Assembly (NCBI GenBank): GCA_021785175.1
Contig: JAJYGH010000013.1
Location: 1-64,000, forward strand
From: Chloroflexota bacterium
GTDB taxonomy: Bacteria > Chloroflexota > Limnocylindria > Limnocylindrales > CSP1-4
Direction of reading: 5' to 3'
DNA length: 64,000 bases
A model generated the notes under the pieces. The model worked only from the letters and a program-made list of their open reading frames with translations. It was not told the DNA's origin and ran no database searches. Numbering within the stretch: position 1 is the first letter of the stretch; each line of letters opens with the position of its first letter. The translations under genes and the position numbers were made by a program. Shown in pieces: positions 3,015 to 22,163 of this stretch.

Positions 3015-5389
3015 GCCGTGCCTCCTCCCCCCGCCGCCTTCGGCCCGGCGTCCCTCCTCATCGCGCGCCAGACCCGTTCGGGCGAGAGCGGCAGCTCGCG
3101 GATCACCGCGCCGGTCGCGTCCCGCACCGCGGCCGCGACGGCCGGCGCCACGCACAGCAGGGCGCCCTCGCTCATCCCCTTCGCACCATACGGCCCCGGG
3201 CCATCCCCGTTCTCGACGGTCGCGCTCTCGAGCTCGAGCGGCAGGTCCATGCTCGTCGGGATGCGGTAGTCGATCGCGCCCAGGTTCCGGATCCGGCCGC
3301 CCTCGTCGAAGATGTACGTCTCCATCAGCGTGTGGCCGAGCCCCATGACCGCGGCACCCTCGTCCTGGGCGCGGACCTGGAGCGGGTTCACCGCGCGTCC
3401 CACGTCCGAGACCGTCACGTGGCGGAGCAGCGTGACGTCGCCCGTCTCCTCGTCGACCGTCGCCTCGACGGCGGTGCAGTTGAACTCCCAGAACGCCGCC
3501 GACCCGCCCAGCGGATGCCCCGGCTCGTCCTCCTTGCGCATCTCGCCGTTGCCGATGACCTCGCCGCCCAGCCGTCCCAGCCCTCGCTTCAGCACGTCGA
3601 GGATCGGCAGCTCGCGGTCCGGCAGTCGCAGCGTGCCATGCTCGACGACGATGGCCCCCTCGGGCACGTCCTCCAGGCGCGCGGCCATCGACCGGATCTT
3701 CGACTGCACGTCGCGGCACGCGCGCAGCACCGCCGTTCCCATCAGCACCGACGACCGGCTTGCCGACGTCTGCGCGTCGTAGGGGACGAGCCGCGTGTCG
3801 CCCATGACGACGGTCACCCAGTCGAGCGGTGCGCCGAGCTCCTCGGCTGCGATCTGCGCGAAGATCGTCCGCGCCCCCTGCCCCATGTCCGATGTCCCGG
3901 CGTAGACGACCACGCTGCCGTCCGCGAGGAGGCGGACCGTGGAGTACGACAGCCCGGTGGTCGGGCCGGACTTGATGCCGATGGCGAGGCCACGCCCGTG
4001 CCCCTTCGGCAGCGGCGCGCCCCACCCGATCGTGTCGGCGGCCTTCCGCACGGTCTGTTCCCACGCACCGTCGGCCGGAGTGTCGAGCGGGATGAACGCC
4101 TCGCCCTTCCGCGCGAGATTCCGGAGCCGGATCTCGAGCGGATCGATCCCGAGCAGCCGGGCCGCCTCGTCGATGTTGGACTCGACCGCCCAGTTGACCT
4201 GCGGATTCCCGAATCCTCGGAAGGCGGTGGACGGCGGCGTGTGCGACAGGATCCCACGGGCGACGATCCGCGCGGCCGGGACTCGATACGGCCCGCAGGC
4301 GGGGTAGCTGCCCTTGCTGACGACGCGATCGGCGATGTCGGCGTACGCGCCCACGAGGTAGTCGGCCGCGATGTCCTGGAAGGCGAACGTGCCGTCGCGG
4401 TGGACGCCCGTCCGGACGCGGACGCGTGCCGCCGCACGCCGCACCGCCTGGAACGTCTCCTCGAGTGTCAGCACGAGCCGGACGGGGCGCCCGGCGCGCA
4501 GCGCCATGAGCGCGACGAGCGGCTCGTACTTGGGGTGCTGCTTGCCGCCGAACCCACCGCCGGGGTCGGGCGCCACGACGCGCACCTTCGAGAGCGGCAG
4601 GCCGAGCATCTTCGCCAGCACGCGCTGGAGCCAGTACGGGTGCTGGATCGTGCTCCAGACGGTGATGCCGTCCTCGTCGGCCGCGGCCGCGAACGCGTGG
4701 GGCTCGATGGCGAACTGGGTCACCATGGGGAACGTGTACGCGTGGTCGACGACGACGATGGGCGCGCCGGGCTCCCGCGCCGCCGTCCCGGCCGGCTCGT
4801 CCCCCGTGGGCCTGGCCTGCCCGGCTGCAGGACGCGGCTCCGCCGCCTCGAACCCCCGGGTCCGGTCGGACGCGGCGTCGACGTCGCCCCACCCGAACCG
4901 GTGCTCGCGGAGGACGTTCGTGCCCGCGCACGGGTCCCCCGGCCGCAGCGCCGGCTCCTGGACGAGCGGCGCGCCCGGGGCGAGCGCCGCATCGATCGTG
5001 AAGAGCGCCGGCAGTTCCTCGTACTCCACCCGCACGAGCCGCACGGCCTCCTCCGCGGCCTCGCGCGTCTCGGCGGCCACGGCCGCGACGGGCTCGCCGT
5101 GGTACTTCGTCTCGCCGACGGCGAGCACGGGACGGTCCTGGAACTGTGGCCCGAACCGCGGGACGGGCTGCGGCAGGTCGGCGGCGGTCATGACGAGCCG
5201 GATGCCACGAACGCGGCACGCTTCCGACGTGTCGATCGAGACGATCCGGGCGCGCGCGCAGTCGAGCGTGACGAGCTTCGCGTGGAGCGCGTCCGGGATC
5301 GGGATGTCGGCGAGGTACGGCTGACGACCCGTCACACGCTCGCGTCCGCCGCCTCGCGGAGCCGCAGCGCCGACCCCGTCGCGCGTCAT
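3011..5389 (-). CDS. Molybdenum hydroxylase large (molybdopterin-binding) subunit, xanthine dehydrogenase/CoxL-like
   Basis: VGETKYHGEPVAAVAAET, VVAPDPGGGFGGKQHPKYE, AFRGFGNPQ, GPYGAKGMSEGAL; ATG overlaps stop of upstream gene. Confidence 0.88.
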   Translation of the reverse strand: MTRDGVGAAAPRGGGRERVTGRQPYLADIPIPDALHAKLVTLDCARARIVSIDTSEACRVRGIRLVMTAADLPQPVPRFGPQFQDRPVLAVGETKYHGEPVAAVAAETREAAEEAVRLVRVEYEELPALFTIDAALAPGAPLVQEPALRPGDPCAGTNVLREHRFGWGDVDAASDRTRGFEAAEPRPAAGQARPTGDEPAGTAAREPGAPIVVVDHAYTFPMVTQFAIEPHAFAAAADEDGITVWSTIQHPYWLQRVLAKMLGLPLSKVRVVAPDPGGGFGGKQHPKYEPLVALMALRAGRPVRLVLTLEETFQAVRRAAARVRVRTGVHRDGTFAFQDIAADYLVGAYADIADRVVSKGSYPACGPYRVPAARIVARGILSHTPPSTAFRGFGNPQVNWAVESNIDEAARLLGIDPLEIRLRNLARKGEAFIPLDTPADGAWEQTVRKAADTIGWGAPLPKGHGRGLAIGIKSGPTTGLSYSTVRLLADGSVVVYAGTSDMGQGARTIFAQIAAEELGAPLDWVTVVMGDTRLVPYDAQTSASRSSVLMGTAVLRACRDVQSKIRSMAARLEDVPEGAIVVEHGTLRLPDRELPILDVLKRGLGRLGGEVIGNGEMRKEDEPGHPLGGSAAFWEFNCTAVEATVDEETGDVTLLRHVTVSDVGRAVNPLQVRAQDEGAAVMGLGHTLMETYIFDEGGRIRNLGAIDYRIPTSMDLPLELESATVENGDGPGPYGAKGMSEGALLCVAPAVAAAVRDATGAVIRELPLSPERVWRAMRRDAGPKAAGGGGTA

Positions 5390-6876
5390 CGCGCGTCCTC
5401 GTCCGCGACGCTGAGGATCGCCTCCTCGATCTGCCGGTATCCCCCGCAGCGGCACAGGTTGCCCGCCAGTGCCTCCTGCACCGCGGCGAGCGTGGGACGG
5501 GGATCGAGGTCGAGGAGTGAGCGCGCCGACATCAGCTGGCCGGGGATGCAGTACCCGCACTGTGCGGCGCCCTTCTCGAGGAACGCCTCCTGCAGCCGGC
5601 TGAGACGCCCGCCTTCCGCGAGGCCCTCGACCGTGCGCACGTCGGCGCCGTCCGCCTCGACCGTCAGCACGAGGCACGCGTCCACGGTCCTCCCGTCGAC
5701 GATCACGGTGCAGGCCCCGCACTCGCCGACGAGGCAGCACTCCTTCGCCCCTGTGAGCCCCAGGTCGTCCCGGAGGGCCTCGAGCAGCGTGCGGTGTGCC
5801 GGAACCTCGAGGCGACGTTCACGTCCATTGACGACCATCGCGATCGCCACGGGCGAGTCGTCGTCCGCGTCGGTCGAGGAGGGGGTCGCGGCCTCGGCTG
5901 GCAGAGTCCGCGGTCGGGCCGCCGGTGCCGGTCCGGCCGCAGGTGCCACCGCGTCCGCCGGTGCCGGCCCGGCCGCCGACGTCACGCGACGCGGCGGCGC
6001 TGCCGTGCTCGCGCGGCTCTGCTCCACCAGCCGCTCGGCCGCCCTCGCCACGGCCCGCGCGGCCAGCACCCGCAGCATCGCGAGCCGGTACTCGGGGCTT
6101 GCCCGCATCGAGCGCGGCGACGGGCTGGCCGCCGACAGCATCCGCTCGAGCCTCGCCGCACGAGCGTCGTCGCTCGACGACGGATCGGCGAGCACGCCGC
6201 TCTCGTCGATCGCGAGCACCGGCCGCGGCCCGACGCTCCCGTACGCGATCCGCACGACCCCGCGCCCGTCGACCGCGGACGACAGCGTGACCGAGGCGAG
6301 GTCGTGACCGCGCCGGCGGGTCCGGCGCAGGTGCGCCGCGCCCACGCGGCCGCCGGCCAGCGGCAGTTCGACCGCGGTCACGATCTCGCCCCGCAGCAGG
6401 GTCGTCGCGCCGGGACCGACGAAGAACTCGTCGATGGGGATCCGTCGGACCCCACCGCGTCCCGCGACGACGACGACCGCCCCGTACACGAGCAGGGGAG
6501 TGGCCGTGTCTGCCGCCGGCGACGCGTTGCAGATGTTCCCGCCGAGCGTGGCCCTGTTCCGGATCTGCACGGACCCGACGACGGCCGCCGCCTCCGCGAG
6601 CGCGACAAACCGGTCGCCAACGCGCGCATTCGCGGCGATGTCGGTCATCACCGTCGTCGCCGCGATCGCGAGCACTCCGTCCCGCTCCGCGATCCCCGGC
6701 CGCAGCTCCGCGACGTGCTTGACATCGACCACGACGCGCGCCGACTCGCTGCGGTCGCGGAGCCCGATGATCAGGTCCGTGCCGCCGGCGAGCAGCCGGG
6801 CATCCCCGCCGTGGCGCTCCAGCAGCGCGATCGCCTCGTCGAGCGTCGCCGGCCGCTCGTACCGGAACGGGTGCAT
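5386..6876 (-). CDS. Fused FAD-binding (CoxM-like, N-term) and 2Fe-2S (CoxS-like, C-term) molybdenum hydroxylase subunit
   Basis: N-term LAGGTDLIIGLRDR, RNRATLGGNICNASPAADTATPLL; Ala/Pro-rich linker; C-term ECGACTV, CGYCIPGQLM, NLCRCGGYRQI. Confidence 0.88.
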   Translation of the reverse strand: MHPFRYERPATLDEAIALLERHGGDARLLAGGTDLIIGLRDRSESARVVVDVKHVAELRPGIAERDGVLAIAATTVMTDIAANARVGDRFVALAEAAAVVGSVQIRNRATLGGNICNASPAADTATPLLVYGAVVVVAGRGGVRRIPIDEFFVGPGATTLLRGEIVTAVELPLAGGRVGAAHLRRTRRRGHDLASVTLSSAVDGRGVVRIAYGSVGPRPVLAIDESGVLADPSSSDDARAARLERMLSAASPSPRSMRASPEYRLAMLRVLAARAVARAAERLVEQSRASTAAPPRRVTSAAGPAPADAVAPAAGPAPAARPRTLPAEAATPSSTDADDDSPVAIAMVVNGRERRLEVPAHRTLLEALRDDLGLTGAKECCLVGECGACTVIVDGRTVDACLVLTVEADGADVRTVEGLAEGGRLSRLQEAFLEKGAAQCGYCIPGQLMSARSLLDLDPRPTLAAVQEALAGNLCRCGGYRQIEEAILSVADEDAR

Positions 6877-6891: not shown

Positions 6892-7779
6892 TCAGAGCAC
6901 CCGGTCCACCTCGTCCATCAGCGCCTGCGGCGTCGCTGCACGGACGAAGTAGAAGGGGCGCTCGCAGAACCGTGAGAGGAAGGCCGCACGCTTCCGCCGG
7001 AGCGGCTCGGCGTCGACGATCGGCATCACGAACCCCGGCGCGAGGAGCTCGTTGAGCAGGAAGTAGTTCTGCAGCGAGTGCAGCGCCTGGAACTGCCGCT
7101 CGAACTGGATCATCCCGGCCAGCGTCGCGTCGAAGTTGCCGTCGATCGCCGGGACGATCACGACGTCGACGTCGCTCGGCTCCGGGAAGATCTCCCAGGT
7201 CGGCATCCCGCCGAAGAACTTCTCGACGCCGCGCTCCGGGGCCGCCTTGTCGGCCCGCTCGGTCCCCTCGGTGCGCTTCTTGATGAACGGCGCCTTCGAG
7301 CCCACGACCGCGCACCCGTCCTCGTCGACGACCGTGGTCTCGGTCGAGACGAGCAGCCCGCCCCGGCGGCACGCCTCGATCTGCCCCATCGACTTGCCGT
7401 GGTTCGACTCGCCCCCGAGGAACATGACCGTGCGGCCCCGGTAGCGGGTGGCGGAGGCGTGGAATGGGTGGAGGCCCTTCTCTTCCATGCGGAGCGCCAG
7501 CAGCGCGACGATGACCTTCTGGAGCGGACCGGCGGGCCAGGGACCCGTGAACGTCATGCGGCGCCCGTCGTACGAGACGTTCTTGGCGCCATCCGCCTGC
7601 CACACGATGTCGGCGGCGGGGAGGGTGACCCCGGGTTCCAGCCGGACGTCGGCGAGCCGGTAGTTGAGGAAGTTCATGTCGTCGAGGACGTGCTCGCGCG
7701 GCTCGCCGCCCAGCACGTCGACACGCAGCCGCGCGCTGCCCGCGGACATCTCCTCCGACAACCGGAACCCGTCGCTCAT
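6892..7779 (-). CDS. HPr kinase-like P-loop protein
   Basis: Walker A GGESNHGKSM preceded by HPFHASATRYRGRTVMFLG; SD-like GGAAAGAGAG upstream of ATG. Confidence 0.6.
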   Translation of the reverse strand: MSDGFRLSEEMSAGSARLRVDVLGGEPREHVLDDMNFLNYRLADVRLEPGVTLPAADIVWQADGAKNVSYDGRRMTFTGPWPAGPLQKVIVALLALRMEEKGLHPFHASATRYRGRTVMFLGGESNHGKSMGQIEACRRGGLLVSTETTVVDEDGCAVVGSKAPFIKKRTEGTERADKAAPERGVEKFFGGMPTWEIFPEPSDVDVVIVPAIDGNFDATLAGMIQFERQFQALHSLQNYFLLNELLAPGFVMPIVDAEPLRRKRAAFLSRFCERPFYFVRAATPQALMDEVDRVL

Positions 7780-7934: not shown

Positions 7935-8702
7935 CTACGCGCCTCCCCGCCCGCGGCGTGCGAGCAGTCCCGTGATCGGCTCCATGGGGAGCGTGGCTGC
8001 GTGCCCCGCGCTCCCGCCCGCACCGGCCCGCACCGACCCCGCGCCCGCGGCACCGGATCCCGGGAACGCGGCGTCGAAGCTGGAGCCGGCGATCTCGAAG
8101 TGGCGGCGGATGGCCGACACGGCGAGGTCCGGGTCGCGCAGGCGCAGCGCGTCCAGGATCGGCTGGTGGAGATCGGCTGCCGCGATGGCGTCGACGCCCG
8201 GCGCCGTCAGCGTGATGAACGTCCGCGCGACGGGCACGAGGTAGCGCCACACGCGCTCGAGTGTCCGGTTCCCCGTGATCCCGATGAGGCGGGCGTGGAA
8301 CTCACCGTCGACGACCGCCTCCTCGTGCGTGTCCCCGGCGGCTGCGGCACGGTGCATCGCATCGATGGATCGCTGGAGCGCGGCGAGGTCCGCGTCGGAC
8401 ACGCGCTTCAGCGCGAGCTGCGCGCCGTACGACTCGAGCTCCGCCCGGACGCCGTACGCCTCGAGCAGCTCGGCCTTGCTTGGGCTCCGGACGCTGGCCC
8501 CGCGGAACGCCGTGATCTCGACGACCCCGAGCGCCTCGAGGTCCCGGAGCGCCTCCCGGACCGGTGCCTGGCTGACGCCCAGCTCGCGCGCCACGCGCGA
8601 CTCGACGATCCGCGAGCCGGGCGGGTAGCGGCCGGACAGGATCGCCTGGAGCAGGTGGTCCTCGACCTGGTCGCTCAGGACGTCGCGGGTGATCTGGGCC
8701 AT
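7935..8702 (-). CDS. GntR family transcriptional regulator (FCD type)
   Basis: N-term wHTH ILSGRYPPGSRIVESRVARELGVSQAPVREALRDLEALGVVE; FCD-like helical C-term. Confidence 0.88.
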   Translation of the reverse strand: MAQITRDVLSDQVEDHLLQAILSGRYPPGSRIVESRVARELGVSQAPVREALRDLEALGVVEITAFRGASVRSPSKAELLEAYGVRAELESYGAQLALKRVSDADLAALQRSIDAMHRAAAAGDTHEEAVVDGEFHARLIGITGNRTLERVWRYLVPVARTFITLTAPGVDAIAAADLHQPILDALRLRDPDLAVSAIRRHFEIAGSSFDAAFPGSGAAGAGSVRAGAGGSAGHAATLPMEPITGLLARRGRGGA

Positions 8703-8711: not shown

Positions 8712-10487
8712 CTACAGCCCGAGCAGGTCGTTCTTGAACTGCGCGGCCGCCTGCACGACCTCGACGAGGCCCGTCGTCCCGTTGACGCGGATCCGGTCGC
8801 CGTCGCGGATCATGCGGGTCGCGTTCGACGCCCCGACCACGGCCGGGATGCCGAACTCGCGCGAGAGGACCGCGGGGTGCGACGTGGTGCCCCCGGCGTC
8901 GGTCACGAGGCCGACGATCTTCGTGAACAGCACGACCCATGCCGGGTTCGTCATCTGGCACACCACGATCTCGCCCGCGCGGACCTCGTCGAACTGGTCC
9001 TCGCGCAGCACGACCCGCGCGACGCCCTCGACGACCCCCGGCGACCCGCCGATGCCGGTGACCTGGCCGACGACCTCGGACGGCTTCCGGTAGAACTTGT
9101 CCGGGAAGCCCCAGTTCACCCAGTACGGGAAGCCCAGCTGGCTTGGCGTCGCGGTGCCGATCCAGTCCCGGGGCCGGACCGCATACGCCGCCTCGCGCTC
9201 CGCCCGCCGCTCGGCGACGAGCGCGCGCGCATCGAACACCTCGCGGTTGCCGATGAGCTCGCGCAGCTCGTTGTACCGGAGGAACATGACATCGTCCTCG
9301 GTGCCGAGGGTGCCGTCCGCGACCAGCTTCTTCCCGATCGCGATGAGCACGAGCCGGACGTGCGCGTTGGCACCCTGGTCGATGTAGAAGTGGTGGTCGG
9401 GGGTCAGCGGAGCCATCTTCAGGTTGAGCTCGTTCGCCGCTCGCATCGCCTCCAGGTCCTCGCCCGCGAGCCCCTCCAGGATCTCCGCGGACGCCCGCTC
9501 GATGTCCGCCGCCATGGCGGCGATCGCGGAGGGATAGTCGTAGTCGGTGTCGATGTAGCCGCGCACGGTCTCGATCACCGGCTCCATGTGCTCCCGCACC
9601 GTCGGGAACACGAACTCGTGGCTCCAGACGGCGTGCCAGCCGAACTCGCGCTGGTACGGCTCCACGCGCTCCGCGATGAAGCGCCGCCCGCGCTCCGACG
9701 AGCGCAGCACGGCGATGATCTCGGGCGCGGTCTCGTGTCGGAACGCGCCCGAGAGGCCCGGATCCCCGACGACCTCCTGCTTCATGGTCCAGAGCGCCTC
9801 GATCGAGTCCCAGTTCCGGTCCCGGGCCGAGTTCTGGAGCCGGCCGAGCAGCGCCTCGTCGACCGCGCCGCGCGTCCGCTGCGCGACGGCCCTCAGGTTC
9901 AGCGTCGCCGACAGCTGCGCGAAGTTCAGCATCCAGTGGATCTTCCAGTGGCGGTCGTGGATGTCGATCGCGTCCTCGAGCAGGCACGCGAGGTCGGGCA
10001 GGTCCAGCTCCTCCTGGTGGTCCAGGCGCTCCTCGAGGTACGCGAAGTTGCGCCGCATCTCGGGCACGAGCCGGTCCCGCCACCAGTCCGCGAAGTGTGC
10101 GCCGTAGACCGGCAGCACGGTGTCGAGGTACGCCCCGATTCGCTCATCGTACGTGGGGTCGAGCGGCACGCGGGCACCGTAGCGGGCGCCGTACTCCATC
10201 GCGTCGACGCGCATCTCGGGGGAGGCGGGCACGGCGGCCGTGTAGAGGTAACCGTTGACCTTCTTCGTGATCCAGTCGCAGGCAAACGGGGTCCCGAAGC
10301 GCCGGAACATGTGGTCGCAGGTCAGCCACCAGCCGCCGACGTCGAAGAACATCGGGCTGAGGGGGTGCGGGCAGTGGAGGTCGTCGTAGACCCAGAAGAG
10401 CGATCGCTCCGCATCCGACGCCCATTCGACCGGGAAGTCGTCGTCGCCGAGGAACTGGCCCAGCACCTCTTCCGTGCTCACCGCCAT
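8712..10487 (-). CDS. PEP-utilising-enzyme mobile (phosphohistidine) domain protein with large helical N-terminal region
   Basis: C-term TDAGGTTSHPAVLSREFGIPAVVGASNATRMIRDGDRIRVNGTTGLV; no ATP-grasp or PEP-binding barrel motif seen. Confidence 0.75.
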   Translation of the reverse strand: MAVSTEEVLGQFLGDDDFPVEWASDAERSLFWVYDDLHCPHPLSPMFFDVGGWWLTCDHMFRRFGTPFACDWITKKVNGYLYTAAVPASPEMRVDAMEYGARYGARVPLDPTYDERIGAYLDTVLPVYGAHFADWWRDRLVPEMRRNFAYLEERLDHQEELDLPDLACLLEDAIDIHDRHWKIHWMLNFAQLSATLNLRAVAQRTRGAVDEALLGRLQNSARDRNWDSIEALWTMKQEVVGDPGLSGAFRHETAPEIIAVLRSSERGRRFIAERVEPYQREFGWHAVWSHEFVFPTVREHMEPVIETVRGYIDTDYDYPSAIAAMAADIERASAEILEGLAGEDLEAMRAANELNLKMAPLTPDHHFYIDQGANAHVRLVLIAIGKKLVADGTLGTEDDVMFLRYNELRELIGNREVFDARALVAERRAEREAAYAVRPRDWIGTATPSQLGFPYWVNWGFPDKFYRKPSEVVGQVTGIGGSPGVVEGVARVVLREDQFDEVRAGEIVVCQMTNPAWVVLFTKIVGLVTDAGGTTSHPAVLSREFGIPAVVGASNATRMIRDGDRIRVNGTTGLVEVVQAAAQFKNDLLGL

Positions 10488-10538
10488 GTCGCTCTCCCTC
10501 GTCTCCGCGGGCCGACCGAGCCGCTCCGTCCAGCGCGC

Positions 10539-10552
10539 GATTATCGATAATC
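10539..10552. promoter_or_regulatory. Candidate operator 1 (perfect 14-bp palindrome GATTATCGATAATC)
   Basis: Read directly; lies 7 nt past a minus-strand TAGACT -10. Confidence 0.7.
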
Positions 10553-10559
10553 CTGGCCG

Positions 10560-10587
10560 AGTCTACTCTCGCCCGAGCCCCCGTCAA
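10560..10587 (-). promoter_or_regulatory. Candidate promoter TTGACG-16-TAGACT for the leftward operon
   Basis: Minus strand -35 TTGACG (10582-10587), -10 TAGACT (10560-10565). Confidence 0.6.
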
Positions 10588-10637
10588 GCGTTCTCTTGCG
10601 CGCACCTTGCAGGAGCGCCGCGACCGTGACAAACGGG

Positions 10638-10666
10638 TTGCGGTGCTGTCGATTATCGATTATCTT
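10638..10666 (+). promoter_or_regulatory. Candidate promoter TTGCGG-17-TATCTT for the rightward operon
   Basis: -35 10638-10643, -10 10661-10666; overlaps operator 2. Confidence 0.45.
10651..10664. promoter_or_regulatory. Candidate operator 2 (GATTATCGATTATC, 13/14 match to operator 1)
   Basis: Second copy of the same motif, 112 bp centre to centre. Confidence 0.7.
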
Positions 10667-10770
10667 GGCGGACGTTCGACGCTGGACGGACGTCGACGAC
10701 ACGGGACGCCGGCGGGCCCCCGGCGTCAGACGTCGCGCGGGCGCGCGAGGGCAGGGAAGCGGAGGCTCCC

Positions 10771-11877
10771 ATGACGATGGTCGACGCTCCGGCGATGATC
10801 GACTCCCCGATGCTGCGGACCGCGCGCATCGGGCTCACCGACTACTGGAACGACTCGTGCGCGGTCGAGGAGCTGCGGTACGCGATCGAACGCGGGGCGG
10901 TCGGGGGCACGACGAACCCACCCATCGTGCTCGAGGTGCTCGACAAGGAGCGCGCGTACTGGGTGCCGCGTGTCCGCCAGCTGGCGGCGGCCAACCCGGC
11001 CTGGAGCGAGGTCGACCTGACCTGGGCGCTCGTCGAGGCGATGGCGGTGCGCGGCGCGGCGGAGCTCGCGCCGGTCCACGCACGCACGGCTGGGCGCAAG
11101 GGCTGGCAGTCGGTCCAGACGAATCCGCAGCACTACACGAACGCCGAGCGGATGGTCGAGCAGGCCGTCCACTTCACCGGCCTCGCGTCGAACATGCAGG
11201 TCAAGATCCCGGCCACGGCCGCAGGCATCGTTGCGATCGAGGAGGCCACTGCGCGCGGCGTGAACGTCAACGCCACGGTGTGCTTCACGGTCCCCCAGGC
11301 GCTCGCGGTCGCCGAGTCGCTCGAACGCGGCCTCCGCCGGCTGGCAGCCGCCGGCGGCGAGCCGGCGCGGCTGGCGCCGGTCGTGACGATCATGGTCGGG
11401 CGCCTGGACGACTGGATGAAGGCGATCGTCGAGCGCGACCAGCTGGCGATCGACCCGCGGGTGCTCGACTGGGCCGGCATCGCGGCGTTCAAGCGGGCCT
11501 ACGGGATCTTCCGCGAGCGGGGCTACCGCGGCCGACTGCTCGTGGCGGCGTTCCGGCACGTCCTTCACTGGACCGAGTTCGTCGGCGGCGACGTCGTGCT
11601 CACGATGCCCCACGCCTGGCAGGTCCGCTACAACACCAGCGGGATCGACCCGGTCTCGCGCATCGACGTGCCTGTCGAACCGGCCATCGTCGACGAGCTG
11701 TGCCGCCGCATCCCCGACTTCTCGCGCGCGTACGAGCCGGACGGCCTCGCGCCCGCCGAGTTCGACGCGTACGGCGCCACCGCCCGCACCCTTCGCCAGT
11801 TCATCGGCGCGTACCACGATCTCACGGCGAAGGTCCGAGACATCGTGCTGCCCAACCCGGACATCGCCGCGGCCTGA
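10771..11877 (+). CDS. Transaldolase family protein
   Basis: GGTTNPPIVLEVL, NMQVKIPATAAGIVAIEEATARGVNVNATVCFTVPQAL. Confidence 0.8.
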   Translation: MTMVDAPAMIDSPMLRTARIGLTDYWNDSCAVEELRYAIERGAVGGTTNPPIVLEVLDKERAYWVPRVRQLAAANPAWSEVDLTWALVEAMAVRGAAELAPVHARTAGRKGWQSVQTNPQHYTNAERMVEQAVHFTGLASNMQVKIPATAAGIVAIEEATARGVNVNATVCFTVPQALAVAESLERGLRRLAAAGGEPARLAPVVTIMVGRLDDWMKAIVERDQLAIDPRVLDWAGIAAFKRAYGIFRERGYRGRLLVAAFRHVLHWTEFVGGDVVLTMPHAWQVRYNTSGIDPVSRIDVPVEPAIVDELCRRIPDFSRAYEPDGLAPAEFDAYGATARTLRQFIGAYHDLTAKVRDIVLPNPDIAAA

Positions 11878-12064
11878 CCGCGGCGGAGCGCAAGGAGCGA
11901 CACCATGACCGCGCCCGTACCCGCCGAGCCGGCGACGCCGGCCGCGCTGCCGATCCTGTCGGACCGGACCGACGCTCGCCCCGTCGAGATCCTGCCCGGT
12001 CGTGCCCGCTCCGGATGACGTCCCGGCAGCTGCCGGCGTCCCCTCGACACTCCTGGAGGCACCC

Positions 12065-12850
12065 ATGAACCCACTCGACACGTTCCGGCTCGACGGCCGC
12101 GTCGCCTTCGTCTCGGGCGGCGGGGGCGCGATCGGCGCCGCCCTCTCCGAGGCGCTGGCGACCGCCGGGGCCAGCGTCGTGGCCGCGGACCTGGACGAGG
12201 CACGCGCGAAGGAGACCGCGGATCGGATCTGCGCGGCGGGCGGCCAGGCGATCGGCGTTGGCGCCGACAGCACCCGTGAGGCCGACGCGGAGCGGGCCGT
12301 GGCAGCCGGCCGCGAGCGGTTCGGCCGGCTCGACATCCTCATCAACGCCGTCGGCGGGGGTGCCGGCGAGGTGCTCTTCGATGCGCAGGAGTACCCGCGC
12401 GACGCGTGGGACTGGATCATGGAGATCAACCTGCGGAGCACGCTGATCGCCACCCAGGCGAGCGTGCGCGAGATGATCCGCGAGGGGCACGGCGGGCGCG
12501 TCATCAACATCAGCTCCGTCCGCGCCACGCTCGGCATCAACGCGGGCTACTCGGCGTACGTGGCCGCCAAGGGCGCCGTCTCGTCGCTGACGCGCCAGTG
12601 GGCGACGGAGTTCGCGAAGCACGCGATCACGGTCAACGCGATCGCGCCGACGTTCGTCGACACGCCGCAGGTGGCGCGCCTGCTCGCGGATCCCGATTTC
12701 AAGTCCGGGCTCGTCAACCGCGTCCCGCTCCGCCGCATCGGCACCACCGACGACCTCGTCGGCCCGGTCATCTTCTTCGCCTCGGATGCGTCGTCATTCG
12801 TGACCGGGCAGATCCTTGGGATCGACGGCGGCCTCACCGCGACGCAGTAG
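12065..12850 (+). CDS. Short-chain dehydrogenase/reductase (SDR)
   Basis: VSGGGGAIGAALSEALATAGA, INAVGGGAGE, YSAYVAAKGAV, GQILGIDGGL; SD ggagg upstream of ATG. Confidence 0.9.
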   Translation: MNPLDTFRLDGRVAFVSGGGGAIGAALSEALATAGASVVAADLDEARAKETADRICAAGGQAIGVGADSTREADAERAVAAGRERFGRLDILINAVGGGAGEVLFDAQEYPRDAWDWIMEINLRSTLIATQASVREMIREGHGGRVINISSVRATLGINAGYSAYVAAKGAVSSLTRQWATEFAKHAITVNAIAPTFVDTPQVARLLADPDFKSGLVNRVPLRRIGTTDDLVGPVIFFASDASSFVTGQILGIDGGLTATQ

Positions 12851-13015: not shown

Positions 13016-13903
13016 ATGGAACAGCTCAGCCCGAACGCGTGGACCGAGACCCGCTGGCGCGGGTGCAACCCGAGCTTCGTGACCACCTCCGAAGGCGTGG
13101 TGGTCATCGACACGCCACAGCTGCCGACGAAGGCGGTCGAGATGCGGCGCGAGGCCGAGTCGCACGGGCCGATCCGGTACGTGATCAACACCGAGCACCA
13201 CGTCGACCATATCTTCGGAAACCACTGGTTCAGGGGCGCCGGGACCGTCGTCCACCACCAGGGCGTCCACGACAACTTCATGGTCGTGTTCCCGGAGCTC
13301 GACCCGTTCGAGTACGCCATGGAGGCGATCCCGACCGACGACCCCGAGGGGGGCGCGCTGGTGCCGGACCGCGAGACGTACTACGCCGGCCTGAACCGAA
13401 ACGGGATCGTGTTCAGCGGCGACCTCACGCTGCACGTCGGCGACCACACGTTCCGGCTGCTGTACACGCCCGGGCACACGCCCGGCCAGGTCGCGGTCCA
13501 CGTGCCGGAGGAGCGCATGGTCTTCACCGGTGACACGGTCTTCTCGGACTGCGCGACGTGGCTCATGTCGTCCGACGTCGACCAGTGGATCGCGTCGCTC
13601 GACCGGATCCGCGCGCTCGAGGACATCGACTTCCTCGTGCCCGGCCACGGCCCGGTGACCACGCTCGACTACCTCGCGACCCAGCGCGCGATGCTGCTCG
13701 AGTGGAAGGCCGCGGTGGCCGTCGCGGTGGCGAAGGGCTGGGGCCGCGAGGAGACCATGGAACGGGTCAGCTTCGCGAGCCGCTACCCGGTCGACGTCGG
13801 GCAGGAGTACATGATGGAGTACATCCAGACGCGGAACGCCGGGGCGCTCTGGGACAGGCTCACGGCGAAGCCGCCGGCCGGCCCGGCGGGCGCCGCGCGC
13901 TGA
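13016..13903 (+). CDS. MBL-fold metallo-hydrolase
   Basis: NTEHHVDHIFGN, YTPGHTPGQVAVHVP, VFTGDTVF, VPGHGPV. Confidence 0.88.
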   Translation: MEQLSPNAWTETRWRGCNPSFVTTSEGVVVIDTPQLPTKAVEMRREAESHGPIRYVINTEHHVDHIFGNHWFRGAGTVVHHQGVHDNFMVVFPELDPFEYAMEAIPTDDPEGGALVPDRETYYAGLNRNGIVFSGDLTLHVGDHTFRLLYTPGHTPGQVAVHVPEERMVFTGDTVFSDCATWLMSSDVDQWIASLDRIRALEDIDFLVPGHGPVTTLDYLATQRAMLLEWKAAVAVAVAKGWGREETMERVSFASRYPVDVGQEYMMEYIQTRNAGALWDRLTAKPPAGPAGAAR

Positions 13904-14036: not shown

Positions 14037-16214
14037 GTGACGCTCGTCCACGACCTCGATCACCGCCACGACCTGCCGCCGGACGAGCTCACGCGCCTCG
14101 TCGGCGGCAAGGCGGCCAACCTCAACGTCATGTCGACCCAGCTCGGGTTGCCGGTGCCGCCCGGCTTCGTCATCGCGACCGCCGCCTGCCGCGCGTACCT
14201 CGGCGACGGCTGGCCGAACGGGCTCGACGAGGAGGTCCGGGCCCACCTGCGGGTCGTCGAGCAGCGAGTGGGCAGGCGGTTCGGGGACGCGTCGGATCCG
14301 CTGCTCGTCAGCGTCCGTTCGGGCGCGCCCGTGTCGATGCCCGGCATGATGGACACGATCCTCAACCTCGGGCTGTCCGGATCCGCGGTCGCCGGCCTCG
14401 CGGCCGTGGCCGGGGACGCGGCGTTCGCGGAGGACTGCCGGCGACGGTTCCGCGAGCAGTACGCGGCGATCGTCGGCATCGACCCGCCGGACGACCCGTG
14501 GCTCCAGCTCCGCGGAGCGATCGAGGCCGTGTTCCGGTCGTGGAACGGTGAGCGTGCCCGCGCGTACCGCGAGCGCGAGGCGATCCCGGACGATCTCGGG
14601 ACGGCCGTGACCGTCCAGGCGATGGTGTTCGGGAACCGCGGCGCGGATTCGGGGACGGGCGTGGCGTTCACGCGGAACCCTGCGACCGGCGAGCCGATGC
14701 TCTACGGGGACGTGCTGTTCGACGCACAGGGTGAGGATGTCGTCGCGGGCACCCACCGAACGGAGCCGCTCGCCGTGCTCGACGGGCGGCTGCCGGACGT
14801 CGCGCGCGAGTTCCGGGGCCACGCGGACCGGCTGGAACGCCACTACACCGACCTGTGCGACATCGAGTTCACGATCGAGCAGGGCCGGCTCTGGCTGTTG
14901 CAGGTGCGCGTCGGCAAGCGCAGCCCGCGGGCCGCGCTGCGGATCGCGCGCGACATGGCGGAGGACCCGTCGTTCCCGCTCACGCGCGCAGAGGCCGTCG
15001 GGCGCGTCGCCCGCATCCTGGAGCACCCGCCGCTCGTCGACATCCGGACGGCAGGCGAAGCGGGCCCGCCGATCACCGTGGGCCTTCCGGCGTCGCCCGG
15101 CGCGGGGTGCGGCGGGATCGAGACGTCGCCGGAGGCCGCGATCGCCGCCGCCGCGTCCGGCCGTCCGGTCGTGCTCGTCCGATCGGAGACGTCGCCCGAC
15201 GACGTCCCGGCGATGGCCCGCGCGGCCGCGGTGCTGACGGCCCGTGGCGGGCTCGCGAGCCACGCGGCCGTCGTGGCGAGGGGCTGGGGCATCCCCGCGG
15301 TGGTGGGGGCGCGCGGTCTCGAGGTCGGCGAGGACGGGATCGTCGCCGGCGGGCGGAAGCTCGCGTGCGGCGAGATCATCACGATCGACGGGACGAGCGG
15401 CGAGGTGTTCGCCGGCGAGGTCACGGGGCGGCGCGAGGTCGCGCCCGAGGCGGCCGAGCTGCTGCGGTGGGCCGCCGAGCTGGGGATCGCGATCGGGGAG
15501 GGGGCGGCGACCGGGCAGGCGGCGGTGGAGCCCTCAGCCGCTCCACCCACCCGGTCGCCGGAGCCCGACGCCGGCTCACAGCCGCCCGCCTCAGCCGGCC
15601 CGGACGACCTGCTCCGGACGATGCTCGTGAAGGGACCCGCGACGTCCGAGGCGCTTTCGGCCGCGCTCGGCGAGCCAGCCGACCGCGTCTCGGCGATGCT
15701 CGCGAACCTGCGCTCAGACGGCCTCGTCGAGACGGGGCCGGCCGGGCCGCGGCTGTCCGCCACGGGCAGGCTTCGTGCGCTCGAGACGTTCGCGGCGGAG
15801 ACGGGGCGCCTGGGAGGCGAGGCGACCTGCGGCGGGATGCTCGACGAGTTCCTCGCCTTCGACCGGCGGATGAAGGACGCGGTCACGGCGTGGCAGCTGC
15901 GGGATGTCGGCGGCGAGCAGGCGTTCAACGACCATTCCGACTCCGCCTACGATGCGGCGGTGCTCGACCGGCTGACCGTCCTGCACGCCGACACGACGGC
16001 CTGGCTGGCGTCCCGGACCGCCGGACTGCCGCGCCTCGACAGGTACCGGGCGCGGCTGGCGCGCGCGCTCGACCTTGCGCGCGGCGGCGACCAGCGATAC
16101 GTCGCGTCGCCGCGCGTGGACAGCTACCACGGCGTCTGGTTCGAGCTGCACGAGGACCTGATCCGGCTCGCGGGCCGGCGCCGGTCCGAGGAAGCAGCGG
16201 CGAGCCGGGCGTAG
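14037..16214 (+). CDS. Pyruvate phosphate dikinase-like protein: ATP-grasp plus phosphohistidine domain, no PEP-binding barrel, novel C-terminal region
   Basis: VGGKAANLNVMSTQLGLPVPPGFVI, SVRSGAPVSMPGMMDTILNLGL, TARGGLASHAAVVARGWGIPAVVGA; then wHTH-like LLRTMLVKGPATSEALSAALGEPADRVSAMLANLRSDGLVE; GTG start. Confidence 0.85.
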   Translation: MTLVHDLDHRHDLPPDELTRLVGGKAANLNVMSTQLGLPVPPGFVIATAACRAYLGDGWPNGLDEEVRAHLRVVEQRVGRRFGDASDPLLVSVRSGAPVSMPGMMDTILNLGLSGSAVAGLAAVAGDAAFAEDCRRRFREQYAAIVGIDPPDDPWLQLRGAIEAVFRSWNGERARAYREREAIPDDLGTAVTVQAMVFGNRGADSGTGVAFTRNPATGEPMLYGDVLFDAQGEDVVAGTHRTEPLAVLDGRLPDVAREFRGHADRLERHYTDLCDIEFTIEQGRLWLLQVRVGKRSPRAALRIARDMAEDPSFPLTRAEAVGRVARILEHPPLVDIRTAGEAGPPITVGLPASPGAGCGGIETSPEAAIAAAASGRPVVLVRSETSPDDVPAMARAAAVLTARGGLASHAAVVARGWGIPAVVGARGLEVGEDGIVAGGRKLACGEIITIDGTSGEVFAGEVTGRREVAPEAAELLRWAAELGIAIGEGAATGQAAVEPSAAPPTRSPEPDAGSQPPASAGPDDLLRTMLVKGPATSEALSAALGEPADRVSAMLANLRSDGLVETGPAGPRLSATGRLRALETFAAETGRLGGEATCGGMLDEFLAFDRRMKDAVTAWQLRDVGGEQAFNDHSDSAYDAAVLDRLTVLHADTTAWLASRTAGLPRLDRYRARLARALDLARGGDQRYVASPRVDSYHGVWFELHEDLIRLAGRRRSEEAAASRA

Positions 16215-16350: not shown

Positions 16351-17208
16351 TCAGTACCCGACCGACGGCATGTACGCGCCGCGCGGCTCCTGGTAGAGCC
16401 CCACGGTCAGCATGTTCAGGACGAAGAACACGCGCAGCCCGTGGTGCAGGCACCAGCGGAACAGCTCGGTGTTCGCCAGCGGGACGAGGAAGCCCGGGGT
16501 GCCGTAGTCGCGGGCCGCGCCGATCAGCGCGGCGAGATCGTCGCTGGTCTCCGCGACGGAGTGCGTGAAGTACGTGACGCCGGTCGTGTAGGCGGTGATC
16601 CGCCCCAGCCGCTCGACGACCATCGCGCCGCCCGACTCGATCGCATCGCTCACCTCGCCCGCCCGGGTGTGCCCGTGCACGCGCAGGCAGAGGTCGTTCA
16701 TCGCCGGCTCGTCGTCGCACGTCGCCGCCCGCACGTCGTAGCCGGGCAGCGCGACGCCCACGGGCTCGCCGTACATCGCGGCGAACGAGCCCCGCACGTC
16801 CATCCCGAGCTTCGCGTACAGGCTCAGCGAACGGTTGTGGTACGCGAGCTGGAGCAGGCGCACGCCGGCCGCCCGGCGCTCGGCCGCCCGATCGAGCATC
16901 GCCGCCATCAGCGCGTGGCCGACCTGCCGGTTCTGGGCTCCGGGGTCGACGCTGACCGGCCCGATCGCCGAGATGATCGAGCGTTCGTCCATGAAGCTGC
17001 TGCCCACGATCCGGCCGCCGTCCTCCGCCACCACCCCGTGGAACTGCGGATGGTTGATCATCCAGCGGATCGGCTCCGCCGCCGCGGCCACGGTGGGGAA
17101 GTCGTGCGGGAAGCCGTGCGCGTCCGCCAGCGTCGCGAACGCGTCGTAGCAGATCCTGCCGGCCTCCTCCCAGTCGGCGTCGACGGCCTCGCGGATCGTG
17201 ACGGTCAT
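16351..17208 (-). CDS. Tandem GNAT acetyltransferase
   Basis: Two GNAT-like halves; SVDPGAQNRQVGHALMAAMLDRAAERRAAGVRLLQLAYHNRSLSLYAKLGM. Confidence 0.75.
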   Translation of the reverse strand: MTVTIREAVDADWEEAGRICYDAFATLADAHGFPHDFPTVAAAAEPIRWMINHPQFHGVVAEDGGRIVGSSFMDERSIISAIGPVSVDPGAQNRQVGHALMAAMLDRAAERRAAGVRLLQLAYHNRSLSLYAKLGMDVRGSFAAMYGEPVGVALPGYDVRAATCDDEPAMNDLCLRVHGHTRAGEVSDAIESGGAMVVERLGRITAYTTGVTYFTHSVAETSDDLAALIGAARDYGTPGFLVPLANTELFRWCLHHGLRVFFVLNMLTVGLYQEPRGAYMPSVGY

Positions 17209-17302
17209 CTGGTCGGCTCCTCCTGCCCCCCGTTTCCCCGTTTCCGCCCCGTGCCCCGGCCCGCCCCGGGCGTCGCCCTCGAGCGGACGCGGCTGCCCGC
17301 TG

Positions 17303-18292
17303 TCAGGATTCCGACGTCACCCTCGTGTAGGCGGCGGCCACGATCACGATGATCGAGCCGAAGACGACCTGGTTCGTCGGCTCCGGCATCCCGAGGACCG
17401 TGATCAGCGCCGAGAGGACCGTGAGGATCAGCGCGCCGACCATCGTGCCGCCGAAGCCGCCCCGGCCGCCGAAGATCGAGGTCCCGCCGATGACCGCGGC
17501 CGCCACGGACGGCAGGAGCGAGGTGTCCACGAGCGTGACGCTGGCCGTGTTCGTGAGCCCCGAGATCAGCAATCCGGCGATGGCGGCCATGAGTGCCGAG
17601 ATGACGTACAGCACGACGAGGACCTGCCAGGAGCGGACACCGGACAGTCGTGCGGCGACGGGGTTGTCGCCGATCGCGAACAGCAGGCGACCGTATCCCG
17701 TGCGCCGCAGCCCGAGCATGATGGCCGCCGCGAGCGGGACGAAGACCACCAGGCTGTACGGCACGACGTCGCCGACGATGCCGCTGCCCATGGTGCGGAG
17801 CACCGGCGGGACTCCGGCGCCCGTCTGGACCGTCTGCAATTGCCAGACGTTCGCGAGGCCATCCACGACGAAGCTCATGCCGAGGGTCGTGATCAGCGGG
17901 TGGACCCTGAAGACGCCCACGCCGACGCCGTTGACCAGGCCGACCAACGCGGCCGCGACGAGCACGACGACGATTCCCTGCGCGACGCCTCCCGGGCTGT
18001 TGACCAGAGTTGCCGTCACGAAGCCCGCCATCGACGCGACCGAGGCGACCGAAAGGTCGATCCCGCCGGTCAGCATCGTGAGGGTCTGGCAACCGGCGAG
18101 GATTGCGAGAGGAATGGAGGCGCGGACGATCACGCCCGCCCATTCCGGCGTGACGATCCCGAAATCCGCCGCCTCGATGGCCAGCACGAGGAGGGCGAGC
18201 AGGCCGATCAACGGGATGATCGGCCGGTCCCGCAGCGTTGTGCGCCATGCCGCGGCCGCGTGTCCGCGACCGCTTGCCGCCACGACCGCCAT
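17303..18292 (-). CDS. Ribose-type ABC transporter permease
   Basis: LTGGIDLSVASVASMAGF, RTGYGRLLFAIGDNPVAARLSGV, GGTSIFGGRGGFGGTMVGALIL. Confidence 0.88.
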   Translation of the reverse strand: MAVVAASGRGHAAAAWRTTLRDRPIIPLIGLLALLVLAIEAADFGIVTPEWAGVIVRASIPLAILAGCQTLTMLTGGIDLSVASVASMAGFVTATLVNSPGGVAQGIVVVLVAAALVGLVNGVGVGVFRVHPLITTLGMSFVVDGLANVWQLQTVQTGAGVPPVLRTMGSGIVGDVVPYSLVVFVPLAAAIMLGLRRTGYGRLLFAIGDNPVAARLSGVRSWQVLVVLYVISALMAAIAGLLISGLTNTASVTLVDTSLLPSVAAAVIGGTSIFGGRGGFGGTMVGALILTVLSALITVLGMPEPTNQVVFGSIIVIVAAAYTRVTSES

Positions 18293-19281
18293 CAGCCTGC
18301 CCTCCGGCTCTCGAGAAGGCTGCCGAGGATCAGCACGCCGACGAGGATGACGCCCTGCACGACCAGGGCGTAGTTGGGGTCGATCCCAAGGAACGTCGTG
18401 TCGTTCTGGATGAGCTGCAGGACGATGACCGCGACGAGCGGGCCGAAGACGCCGCCGCGGCCCCCTGCCAGGCTGACGCCTCCGAGCACGACGGCCGCGA
18501 CGCTCTGCAGCGTGTACGGCCCGGGAACCGGCGTCCCGATGCCGGTGCTTGCGGTGAGCGACAGACCGGCCAGGCCGCCGAAGAGACCGGCGATGGCGTA
18601 CGCGATCACTTTCGTGCGGCCGATCGCGACCCCGCTCCGGAAGGCGGCCAGCTGGTCGCTGCCCACGGCGTAGAGCGAGACCCCGAGTCGTGACCTGGAA
18701 AGGGGGATCCAGATGGCGGCGACGATCACCACGAGCACGATGGCCGCCTTGGGCAGCCAGTCGCTCAGGAATGCCCCCGTCGTCAGGCTCATCAGCCAGG
18801 GCGCCGCCGCTCCTCCGGGAGCGGCCGTGACGAGCAGAGCCAGGCCAGCCCACACGAACGACGTGGCCAGGGTGACGATGATATCGGGGACGCGCGTGGC
18901 CACGACGAGCGCGCCGTTGAGGGCGCCGAGGGCGATCCCCAGGAGCAGCACGCCGGCAACGACCGCGACGCCGAAGGTGCCGCTCTGGCCCTCCATCTGG
19001 GTCGCCGCGACGACGCTGGTCAGCGCCATCATCGACCCGATCGACAGGTCGATTCCGCCGGCGATCACGACGATCGCCTGCGCGACCGCGGCGAACGCCA
19101 GGGGCATGATCGAGATCCCGAGACCCTGGATCCCGAAGGCGCCGTAGTTCGGCTGGATGAGCTTGGTGAAGCCGAGCAGGAGTGCGAGCAGGACCATGAG
19201 CCCGATCGTCCAGGAGTCGCGACGAGCCCACTCGGCAAGGTCGGGATTGTGCCGTCGGGTCGTGACGGCCAGCGCGGTCAT
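18292..19281 (-). CDS. Ribose-type ABC transporter permease
   Basis: IAGGIDLSIGSMMALTSVVAA, LGGVSLAGGRGGVFGPLVAVIVL; ATGA overlap with the next permease. Confidence 0.88.
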   Translation of the reverse strand: MTALAVTTRRHNPDLAEWARRDSWTIGLMVLLALLLGFTKLIQPNYGAFGIQGLGISIMPLAFAAVAQAIVVIAGGIDLSIGSMMALTSVVAATQMEGQSGTFGVAVVAGVLLLGIALGALNGALVVATRVPDIIVTLATSFVWAGLALLVTAAPGGAAAPWLMSLTTGAFLSDWLPKAAIVLVVIVAAIWIPLSRSRLGVSLYAVGSDQLAAFRSGVAIGRTKVIAYAIAGLFGGLAGLSLTASTGIGTPVPGPYTLQSVAAVVLGGVSLAGGRGGVFGPLVAVIVLQLIQNDTTFLGIDPNYALVVQGVILVGVLILGSLLESRRAG

Positions 19282-20864
19282 GCGGGAACCTCCGGCTCGT
19301 GAGTCGCGGCGGCCGGTTCTTCGCCGCCGGTCGCTTCGACGGCAGTCGCGGCCAGCTCCTGCGGCAGCGCCGCCCCGGACTGGAGGTGGTAGGCAGCGTG
19401 CAGGAGGGTCGCTTCATCCGCGTCGGCGCGATCGATCTCGGCCACGACCTGCCCGCCGAAGATCACGATCGCACGGTCGCAGACGAGCTGGACCTCCTTG
19501 AGTTCGGACGTGTACAGGAGAACCGCGGCGCCGGCCTCCGCCAGCTCGCGGAGCAGCACGTAGATCTGCTGCTTCGTCCGGATGTCGATGCCGCGCGTCG
19601 GGTCGAAGCAGAGCATGGTGTGGACGCCACCCGCGACCCAGCGTGCGATCGTCACCTTCTGCTGGTTGCCGCCCGACAGCCGGCGGACCTCGTTGCCCGC
19701 CCGGGCGTCGATCTGCAGGCGCGAGACGGCTTCGTCCACCGTGCGGCCTTCACGATGCAGGTCGATCAGTCCCCACCTGCCGATGCGCGCGATGAACGGG
19801 AGGGCGATGTTCTCCCGCACGGAGCGCTGCATGAGGAGCGCCTCGGCGCGGTCGGCGGCGACGTAGACGAGTCCGGCCCGGATGGCATCTGCCGGATGCC
19901 GGAAGGAGACGCTCGTGCCGTCGACGACGATCTGGCCGCTGCTCGGGCGCCTCGCCCCGGAGAGGATCTGGAAGAGCTCGTCCTGGCCCTGCCCCTCGAG
20001 CGCCACCACCCCCAGGACCTCACCGGGATGGACGTCGAACGAGACGTCGTGCAGCCTGGTGCCCTGGCTCAGGCCCTGCACCGACATCCTGGGCGGGAGC
20101 GTCTCGTCGCGCGCGGCGGCGTGCTCCGCCTGCGGGATGACCTGCTCGACGATCTGGCCGAGCATGAGGTCGACGATCCGCTCCTCGGATCCCGCGGTCA
20201 CGTCGACCACGCCGACGGTCTCGCCTTCGCGCAGGACGGTCGCGCGATCGCAGACCGAGCCGATCTCGCTCATCCGGTGCGAGATGAACACGACGGAGCG
20301 GTCGCCGCCCCGCATGCCGCCGATCACCTCGAGCACGCGCTCGGTCAGGTTCGCGGGGAGCGCGGCCGTCATCTCGTCGAGCATCAGGACGTCCGGCTCG
20401 ATCGCGAGCGCCCGGGCGAGGTCGATGATCCGGAGCGAGGCGAGCGGCAGGCGCCGCGCCAGGCTCGACAGATCGAGGTCCGCGAGGCCGAACTCCGCGA
20501 GCCAGTGCCGGAACGGCTCGAGCCGGGTCTCGGTCAGGCGGAGGTTCGCGCGGATGTCGAGGTCGGGGATGATCGCGGGGTCCTGGTACACGGACACCAG
20601 GCCGCCGTGTCGCGCCTCGGCCGGCGAGTGGACGGTTCGCTGGCGCCCGCGCACGGCGATGCTGCCGCCATCGGGCCGGACGGCCCCCGTCAGGATCTTG
20701 ACGAGCGTGCTCTTGCCGGCGCCGTTGGCCCCCATGAGGGCGTGCACCTCGCCCGGGCGTACGGCCAGCGAAGCGGACTTCAGCGCCACCACGGCGCCGT
20801 ACGTCTTCGAGATTCCGGTCGCCTCGAGCACGAGGCCGGTGGTGGCGATCGTCATGGCTCCCAT
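19278..20864 (-). CDS. Ribose-type ABC transporter ATP-binding protein (two ATPase domains)
   Basis: GANGAGKSTLVKIL, LMLDEMTAAL, RRLSGGNQQKVTIARWV, DPTRGID; start at 20864 or 20855. Confidence 0.88.
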   Translation of the reverse strand: MGAMTIATTGLVLEATGISKTYGAVVALKSASLAVRPGEVHALMGANGAGKSTLVKILTGAVRPDGGSIAVRGRQRTVHSPAEARHGGLVSVYQDPAIIPDLDIRANLRLTETRLEPFRHWLAEFGLADLDLSSLARRLPLASLRIIDLARALAIEPDVLMLDEMTAALPANLTERVLEVIGGMRGGDRSVVFISHRMSEIGSVCDRATVLREGETVGVVDVTAGSEERIVDLMLGQIVEQVIPQAEHAAARDETLPPRMSVQGLSQGTRLHDVSFDVHPGEVLGVVALEGQGQDELFQILSGARRPSSGQIVVDGTSVSFRHPADAIRAGLVYVAADRAEALLMQRSVRENIALPFIARIGRWGLIDLHREGRTVDEAVSRLQIDARAGNEVRRLSGGNQQKVTIARWVAGGVHTMLCFDPTRGIDIRTKQQIYVLLRELAEAGAAVLLYTSELKEVQLVCDRAIVIFGGQVVAEIDRADADEATLLHAAYHLQSGAALPQELAATAVEATGGEEPAAATHEPEVPA

Positions 20865-20883
20865 TCGAGAATCCGTGCGGATA

Positions 20884-20915
20884 CGAGGGATGCCGGCCTG
20901 GGCCGGCATCCCTCG
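20884..20915. repeat. Perfect 15-bp-arm inverted repeat between substrate-binding-protein and ATPase genes
   Basis: CGAGGGATGCCGGCC-tg-GGCCGGCATCCCTCG. Confidence 0.85.
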
Positions 20916-20936
20916 GAGTCGTCACCCGGGGTCCGG

Positions 20937-22163
20937 TCAGCCGCCGCTGCAGGTGGCAGGCACCGTGTTCGGATCGTACGTTGTCCAGCCCGGGATAGAA
21001 AGGCTGAGTGGCCACAGTGCGTTCAGGCCGGGCACCGAGACCCACTTCTGCAGGTCGGCACGGCCCTGCGCGGTCGTGTTGTCGAGGATCTGGGGGGTCA
21101 GGAGAACCGTGTTGGGGTGACCCGCATTCGGGTCGGCCTGCACGGGCTGATGGTTGAGGAGCTTCAGCGCCAGCGTGATGCCCGCGCCGCCGACGGCCGC
21201 CGTGTTGCTCACGGCTGCCCCCGTGAGGCCCGGGAAGTCCTTGGTGTCGAGGAGCTGGTTGACGAACCCGCCGATGTCGGCGTCTGCGATCGGCACGTAC
21301 TTCTTGCCGGCCGCCTTGATCGCGTCGACGATCTGCTTGCCCATGCCGGACGCCCAGATGCCGTTGATCTTGTCGTACTGGCCGCTCTGGATGAAGTCGT
21401 TGGTGATCCGGGTGGTGGTGGCCGGATCCCAGCCCGTGAAGACGCCCTGGTCGTTCGGGACGACCTTGATGCCCGGGTACTGCTTGAGGACGGTCTGGAA
21501 GCCCTCGTTACGGTCGTCGTCCGCCGGGTTACCGGCGAGGCCGCGGGTGTACCAGACGGTGCCCTTGCCGCCGAGCTGTTCGAACAGCCACTTCGCGCCG
21601 AGCTCCGCGTACATCACCTGGTTGTTGTACAGGTTCCAGGTGTTCGGATCGGTCACATAGGAGTCGACGGAGACGGTGACGATGCCGGCCGAGTGCGCTT
21701 CCGCGAGGGCCGGGTTGAGGGCGCTCGGGTCGTTCGGGTTGAAGACGATCGCGTTGACGCCCTTGGCGATGAGGCTGCGGATGTCGGATGCCTGGCCCGC
21801 GGCGTCAGTGTTGCGGTGGATGACGGTGAGGGCGGACGGAGAGCCGCCGTACGCCTTCCACTGGGCCTTCGCGGTGCAGACCTGCTCCTCCCGGAACCCG
21901 TTGCCGACACCGGCCGCGTTCGAGTAGCCGATCTTGTAGCTACCGGCCGAGAGGGCGGCAGCGCTGGCGGCACCGGTCGAGGCGGCGGCGGTCGCCGCGG
22001 CAGAAGCCGGCGCAACCGACGGGGCCGCCTGCGACGCAGCCGCCGCCGACGCCTGAGCCGCCGCCGTCGGGGCCGTCGAGGCGCCGGCGGAGGAGCACGC
22101 TCCGATGATGGAGGTGACCGCGAGGATCGCGGCCAACCTTCTTGCCACTTGGTCTCGTTTCAT
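20937..22163 (-). CDS. Sugar ABC transporter substrate-binding lipoprotein
   Basis: Lipobox-like IIGAC after signal peptide; SLIAKGVNAIVFNPNDPSALNPALAEAHSAGIVTVSVDS. Confidence 0.88.
   Translation of the reverse strand: MKRDQVARRLAAILAVTSIIGACSSAGASTAPTAAAQASAAAASQAAPSVAPASAAATAAASTGAASAAALSAGSYKIGYSNAAGVGNGFREEQVCTAKAQWKAYGGSPSALTVIHRNTDAAGQASDIRSLIAKGVNAIVFNPNDPSALNPALAEAHSAGIVTVSVDSYVTDPNTWNLYNNQVMYAELGAKWLFEQLGGKGTVWYTRGLAGNPADDDRNEGFQTVLKQYPGIKVVPNDQGVFTGWDPATTTRITNDFIQSGQYDKINGIWASGMGKQIVDAIKAAGKKYVPIADADIGGFVNQLLDTKDFPGLTGAAVSNTAAVGGAGITLALKLLNHQPVQADPNAGHPNTVLLTPQILDNTTAQGRADLQKWVSVPGLNALWPLSLSIPGWTTYDPNTVPATCSGG

Follow-up and report, generated by a model that had tools for sequence, protein, structure and literature searches.

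Two divergent operons of a Chloroflexota-type bacterium are separated by a short gap in which a 14-bp word occurs twice, raising the question of whether these words are operators, which protein would read them and whether they would act singly or together. Within the 64,000-nucleotide stretch of DNA analysed here (the window), the two 14-mers are, very probably and as judged from sequence, the operators of an autoregulated GntR/FCD catabolic repressor that would block each promoter locally until a metabolite released the protein.

Two probable operator copies at divergent promoters

The gap between the operons spans 283 bp, from the ATG of the PEP-utiliser gene at 10487 (minus strand) to the transaldolase-family gene at 10771 (plus strand), and holds both 14-mers at the coordinates originally predicted, together with a candidate promoter for each operon:

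10539 to 10552, no strand: operator copy 1, GATTATCGATAATC, a perfect palindrome where the leftward transcript is expected to begin
10560 to 10587, minus strand: predicted leftward-operon promoter TTGACG-16-TAGACT, the sole promoter-like site found, kept in loci L006, L007 and L096
10638 to 10666, plus strand: predicted rightward-operon promoter TTGCGG-17-TATCTT, kept in L006 and L007
10651 to 10664, no strand: operator copy 2, GATTATCGATTATC, lying across the spacer and -10 box of the rightward promoter

On the minus strand, the TTGACG (10587-10582) and TAGACT (10565-10560) boxes form the one promoter-like site in a scan of positions 10440-10800 (0.0 in shuffles). As first described, copy 1 starts 7 nt past this promoter and, beginning so close to the -10 box, covers the expected leftward transcript start; L006, L007 and L096 show the same arrangement, their -10 box and operator being 7-10 nt apart. 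The plus-strand boxes TTGCGG (10638-10643) and TATCTT (10661-10666) fall under the scan threshold, yet TTGCG and a TATTCT -10 box are kept in L006 and L007, and copy 2 does fill the spacer and overlap the -10 box. At 14 of 23 transaldolase-proximal sites, a TTG begins 11-16 nt upstream of the operator, where a -35 box would be expected, against 0-5 in the other 6-nt bins. No terminator was found in the gap between the operons, and a search for RNA elements across 10300-11000 returned only a sub-threshold snoRNA match.

The two copies were the sole matches in the 64-kb window when up to two mismatches were allowed (0.02 expected from shuffles). The genome-wide scan proposed with the original prediction, run as a pattern search of the 2.69-Mb assembly, revealed no abundance of the motif: the two copies were unique, with three further two-mismatch words, all on other contigs, and a genome-wide repeat was thereby ruled out. 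From 55 sites near the transaldolase or PPDK-like genes and PEP-utiliser-GntR operons we derived the family consensus CGATNATCGATNATCG, in which positions 4 and 11 are nearly free. Because these sites were gathered with the motif itself, the information content of the consensus is inflated and it is the gap between matrix scores that counts, with copy 1 at 27.1, copy 2 at 31.9 and the best non-operator match in the window at 9.5. The freedom of positions 4 and 11 also means that both copies are full-strength, ruling out copy 2 as a degraded palindrome or weakened form of copy 1.

Gene cluster and recurrence of the motif

The genes flanking the operators were assigned as follows:

5386 to 6876, minus strand: molybdopterin-dehydrogenase FAD and 2Fe-2S subunits in a single frame (Pfam), kept in relatives
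6892 to 7779, minus strand: conserved third gene of the leftward operon, also kept in relatives' clusters
7935 to 8702, minus strand: GntR/FCD regulator of 255 aa, the proposed cognate repressor (Pfam GntR 9.5e-16, FCD 2e-24)
8712 to 10487, minus strand: PEP-utiliser mobile-domain protein, first leftward-operon gene (Pfam PF00391, 2e-24)
10771 to 11877, plus strand: transaldolase-family protein, first rightward-operon gene (Pfam TAL_FSA, 1.8e-36)
12002 to 12850, plus strand: SDR dehydrogenase (Pfam)
13016 to 13903, plus strand: metallo-beta-lactamase-fold hydrolase (Pfam, 2.9e-23)
14037 to 16214, plus strand: PPDK-like protein (Pfam PPDK_N and PEP-utilizers)

On these predictions, the operons are a sugar-type breakdown gene cluster of a Chloroflexota-type bacterium, in which the GntR/FCD gene indeed occupies the second position of the leftward operon, 9 nt behind 8712-10487. 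The open frame of the SDR gene begins at 12002, its true start probably being an in-frame ATG further in, and its closest NCBIfam models are gluconate 5-dehydrogenase-like, under the cut-off. Two proteins of the cluster are PEP-synthase-like: that of 8712-10487 matched the phosphohistidine domain alone in Pfam, while in that of 14037-16214 the ATP-binding and phosphohistidine domains were matched and the PEP-binding domain was not. Together they are perhaps a split dikinase. The 6892-7779 protein had no family match in Pfam or NCBIfam; it shares 67-94% identity with its counterparts in relatives and carries a P-loop-like GESNHGKS.

Further differences in gene content were seen among relatives. 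A 37-codon frame after the transaldolase gene (11905-12018) resembles, by eye, the truncated start of an aldehyde-dehydrogenase (MmsA-like) gene, and a search of the window for the rest of that gene gave no match; such a gene comes after the transaldolase in L009, L011, L014, L016, L088 and L140 (the last named from reading its sequence). In distant relatives, the space from the operator to the PEP-utiliser gene holds a gene for a small multi-pass membrane protein (L009 5125-5862, L011 4313-5134, L015 1559-2140, L016 4963-5820 and L018 5527-6123); the window has no such gene. The sugar ABC operon of the window (17205-22163) has no recognisable operator, unlike its homologue in L080, L109 and L115, which the motif precedes; this counts against our main reading. 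A conserved G+C-rich inverted repeat, for example AGTGCCGTTCGGCACT, abuts the transaldolase-proximal operator just upstream in L009, L011-L014, L016, L106 and L110, and is perhaps the site of a second regulator.

Sites, promoters and gene order are all kept in sister genomes, and a three-way alignment of the window with L006 and L007 gave 13 of 14 invariant columns for each operator versus 114 of 259 in the remaining gap. At farther loci (Chloroflexi or Dormiibacterota), counted wherever the contig reaches the operator region, the motif is kept beside a transaldolase or PPDK-like gene and the PEP-utiliser-GntR operon, with one-mismatch forms in L017 and L019. Among 177 genomes of the class, the exact motif occurred at 41 places in 29 genomes. 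By our reading of the loci, about 32 of these places adjoin pathway genes, namely transaldolase, PEP-utiliser, GntR paralogues, ribose-type sugar ABC and Liv-type ABC operons, SDR/MBL pairs, and Gfo/Idh-like and zinc-ADH/UPF0261-like genes, the last of these named by eye. Three further exact places are intergenic with plausible targets.

The six remaining exact matches lie within unrelated coding frames, so some chance matches do occur, and those in G019, G166, G176 and G021:C58 were set aside as such. They are what would favour a chance repeat of an AT-rich word at our locus as well, a reading that we practically discount in view of the 0.02 matches expected in the window and the conservation of the motif across genera. 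A control pattern with the ATCGAT core and permuted arms likewise had 0 matches in the same class genomes, a lenient comparison since it contains TAG/CTA words that are rare in such genomes. Dozens of related genomes carry the motif next to the same genes and regulator, so we regard it as a real but fairly ordinary repressor site. A literature search found no paper with this motif and none on a GntR regulon with a transaldolase in Chloroflexi.

The GntR/FCD regulator and its proposed mode of action

The 7935-8702 protein belongs to the FCD subfamily of the GntR superfamily, scoring 57.7 bits against PF00392 (cut-off 27) and 86.8 bits against PF07729 (cut-off 24.3). The residues of the FCD metal site are an Asp-x3-His pair plus two further His, and the corresponding Asp132, His136, His179 and His201 are invariant in 14 homologues; with this set intact, family membership makes a carboxylate or sugar-acid ligand plausible. 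Also invariant in homologues is the recognition helix, SQ[AGT]PVREA.

The motif associates with this regulator across genomes as it does with the target genes. A homologue (E<=1e-30) was detected in 24 of the 29 motif genomes versus 25 of 148 others (Fisher p 1.1e-11, a guide only as the genomes are related and often incomplete). Of the five motif genomes without a homologue, G019, G166 and G176 carry the motif in coding frames only and G014 is 62% complete. G006 was rejected as a counterexample, its contig ending in the first transaldolase codons, where gntR sits in G001 and G007. Among the 25 genomes with the regulator and no exact motif, many of the loci read show one-mismatch sites.

Were the sites to belong to a different regulator, the GntR/FCD gene would merely be their neighbour. 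Pointing that way, GT/AC boxes, which are usual for the subfamily (PMC4494728), are missing from the operator, and one motif locus, L114, has a HutC-type GntR-like frame nearby. We nevertheless judge this reading quite unlikely, given the strong co-occurrence and the adjacency of the motif to GntR paralogues at L110, L112 and L113, the motif being found too at unlinked transporter and SDR operons. The ROK protein was ruled out as the rival regulator, since its gene is not kept with the motif and was matched in only four relatives' loci.

The TKGT/ACMA boxes, common in the FCD subfamily and not universal, are absent from CGATNATCGATNATCG. In the regulator, residue 45 is Gln, and the three other FCD proteins of the genome have Arg there. 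Gln45 aligns with Arg45 of the Agrobacterium fabrum repressor Atu1419, the winged helix-turn-helix domains aligning gap-free over residues 16-62. It would fit an operator without GT/AC boxes, as supporting rather than decisive evidence; the argument is weak by itself because LutR has Arg at this position and also a non-GT site. We tentatively raise the possibility, one we doubt, that the operators are arrays of modular 7-bp units (GATNATC, each palindromic) in which a CG step returns every 7 bp; a distinct FCD branch would read them with Gln45 in place of Arg45, and two or three units would tune occupancy through overlapping dimers. Of the 55 sites, 28 are flanked by an adjoining half-unit and 8 by a near-complete third unit; the copies in the window have two 7-bp units only.

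In the mechanism that we propose, copy 1, when bound by a regulator dimer, would be blocked at the start of the leftward transcript, and the regulator, whose gene lies on that transcript, would so repress itself; on copy 2, a dimer would overlie the -35/-10 spacer and -10 box of the rightward promoter. Each site would stop RNA polymerase at its own promoter by separate steric repression, until the regulator was freed from DNA by a metabolite of the pathway, probably a small carboxylate or a sugar acid held at the FCD metal site. We infer here direct binding, repression over activation, the ligand and the independent action of the two sites. Going by sequence alone, the protein might instead activate the rightward promoter or have mixed roles; as copy 1 sits where the transcript begins and copy 2 over the spacer and -10 box, positions typical of repression, we consider this very unlikely.

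The original prediction also held that the 112-bp spacing is close to an integral number of helical turns and would allow looping. At 10.5 bp per turn it amounts to 10.67 turns, and eight paired-site loci spanning 43-130 bp (112, 120, 127, 72, 90, 118, 130 and 43 bp) share no common phase (R 0.17, Rayleigh p ~0.8), and we therefore reject looping by helical phase. A loop could still form if a regulator tetramer bridged copies 1 and 2 and so repressed both promoters, as in the FCD/VanR-group repressor Atu1419, a tetramer that loops the DNA of a divergent region between two palindromes spaced 190 bp from each other (PMC7797058). A flexible tetramer of this kind may be compatible with the sequence; set against the spacings above and the single site present in many loci of the family, such bridging appears unlikely. 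The original interpretation is thus upheld in part: strongly as to operator, divergent control and cognate gene, the motif travelling with the gene and its targets, and not as to phase-dependent looping.

For a catabolic pathway in uncultivated bacteria of Chloroflexota type, these findings supply an operator, a regulator and a regulon of several operons. As a search pattern, the motif can be used to find missing pathway genes (transporters, dehydrogenases and aldolases) at unlinked loci, helping to name the substrate. They also add an FCD regulator with an operator that departs from the usual GT/AC pattern, a departure coupled to a swap at a base-reading residue.

Comparison with known systems

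Atu1419 is an FCD/VanR-group GntR repressor in which Arg45 reads an operator guanine (PMC7797058). Shared with our locus are the FCD regulator and the palindromes of a divergent region, where one covers a -10 box and another sits between -10 and -35, and Glu34, Ser44 and Arg49 are kept within the aligned domain. Residues 45 and 46 differ (Gln and Ala here, Arg and Thr in Atu1419), as do operator and pathway, and the tetramer and loop known for Atu1419 are here considered from sequence alone.

The operator core resembles the site of BioR and, less closely, that of LutR, both published exceptions to the TKGT/ACMA boxes (PMC4494728, PMC11734750). BioR is the FCD/GntR biotin repressor of alphaproteobacteria, with the site TTATMKATAA, for which paired sites and autoregulation have been described (PMC4494728, PMC4554459). 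Copy 1 contains TTATCGATAA, which fits TTATMKATAA, whereas copy 2 has one mismatch to it and the consensus CGATNATCGATNATCG is longer, with positions 4 and 11 free; no biotin genes were found among the neighbouring proteins scanned. LutR, the GntR L-lactate repressor of Bacillus subtilis, binds TCATC-N1-GATGA (PMC11734750) and shares with our system the ATC/GAT half-sites, an operator downstream of the promoter and the role of catabolic repressor. Its site has a one-base spacer that CGATNATCGATNATCG lacks, its helix is SRSAVREAL with Arg, and no lactate-utilisation families were found among the neighbours scanned. We do not file the regulator, a GntR/FCD member by its domains, as BioR or LutR.

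In layout, our system follows the FadR-subfamily divergons with double sites and resembles Atu1419. Those divergons differ in the common TKGT/ACMA boxes, which our operator lacks, and are alike in having divergent operons, one of which holds the regulator gene, and a site by each of the two promoters; most of them are believed to use each site for its own operon (PMC4494728).
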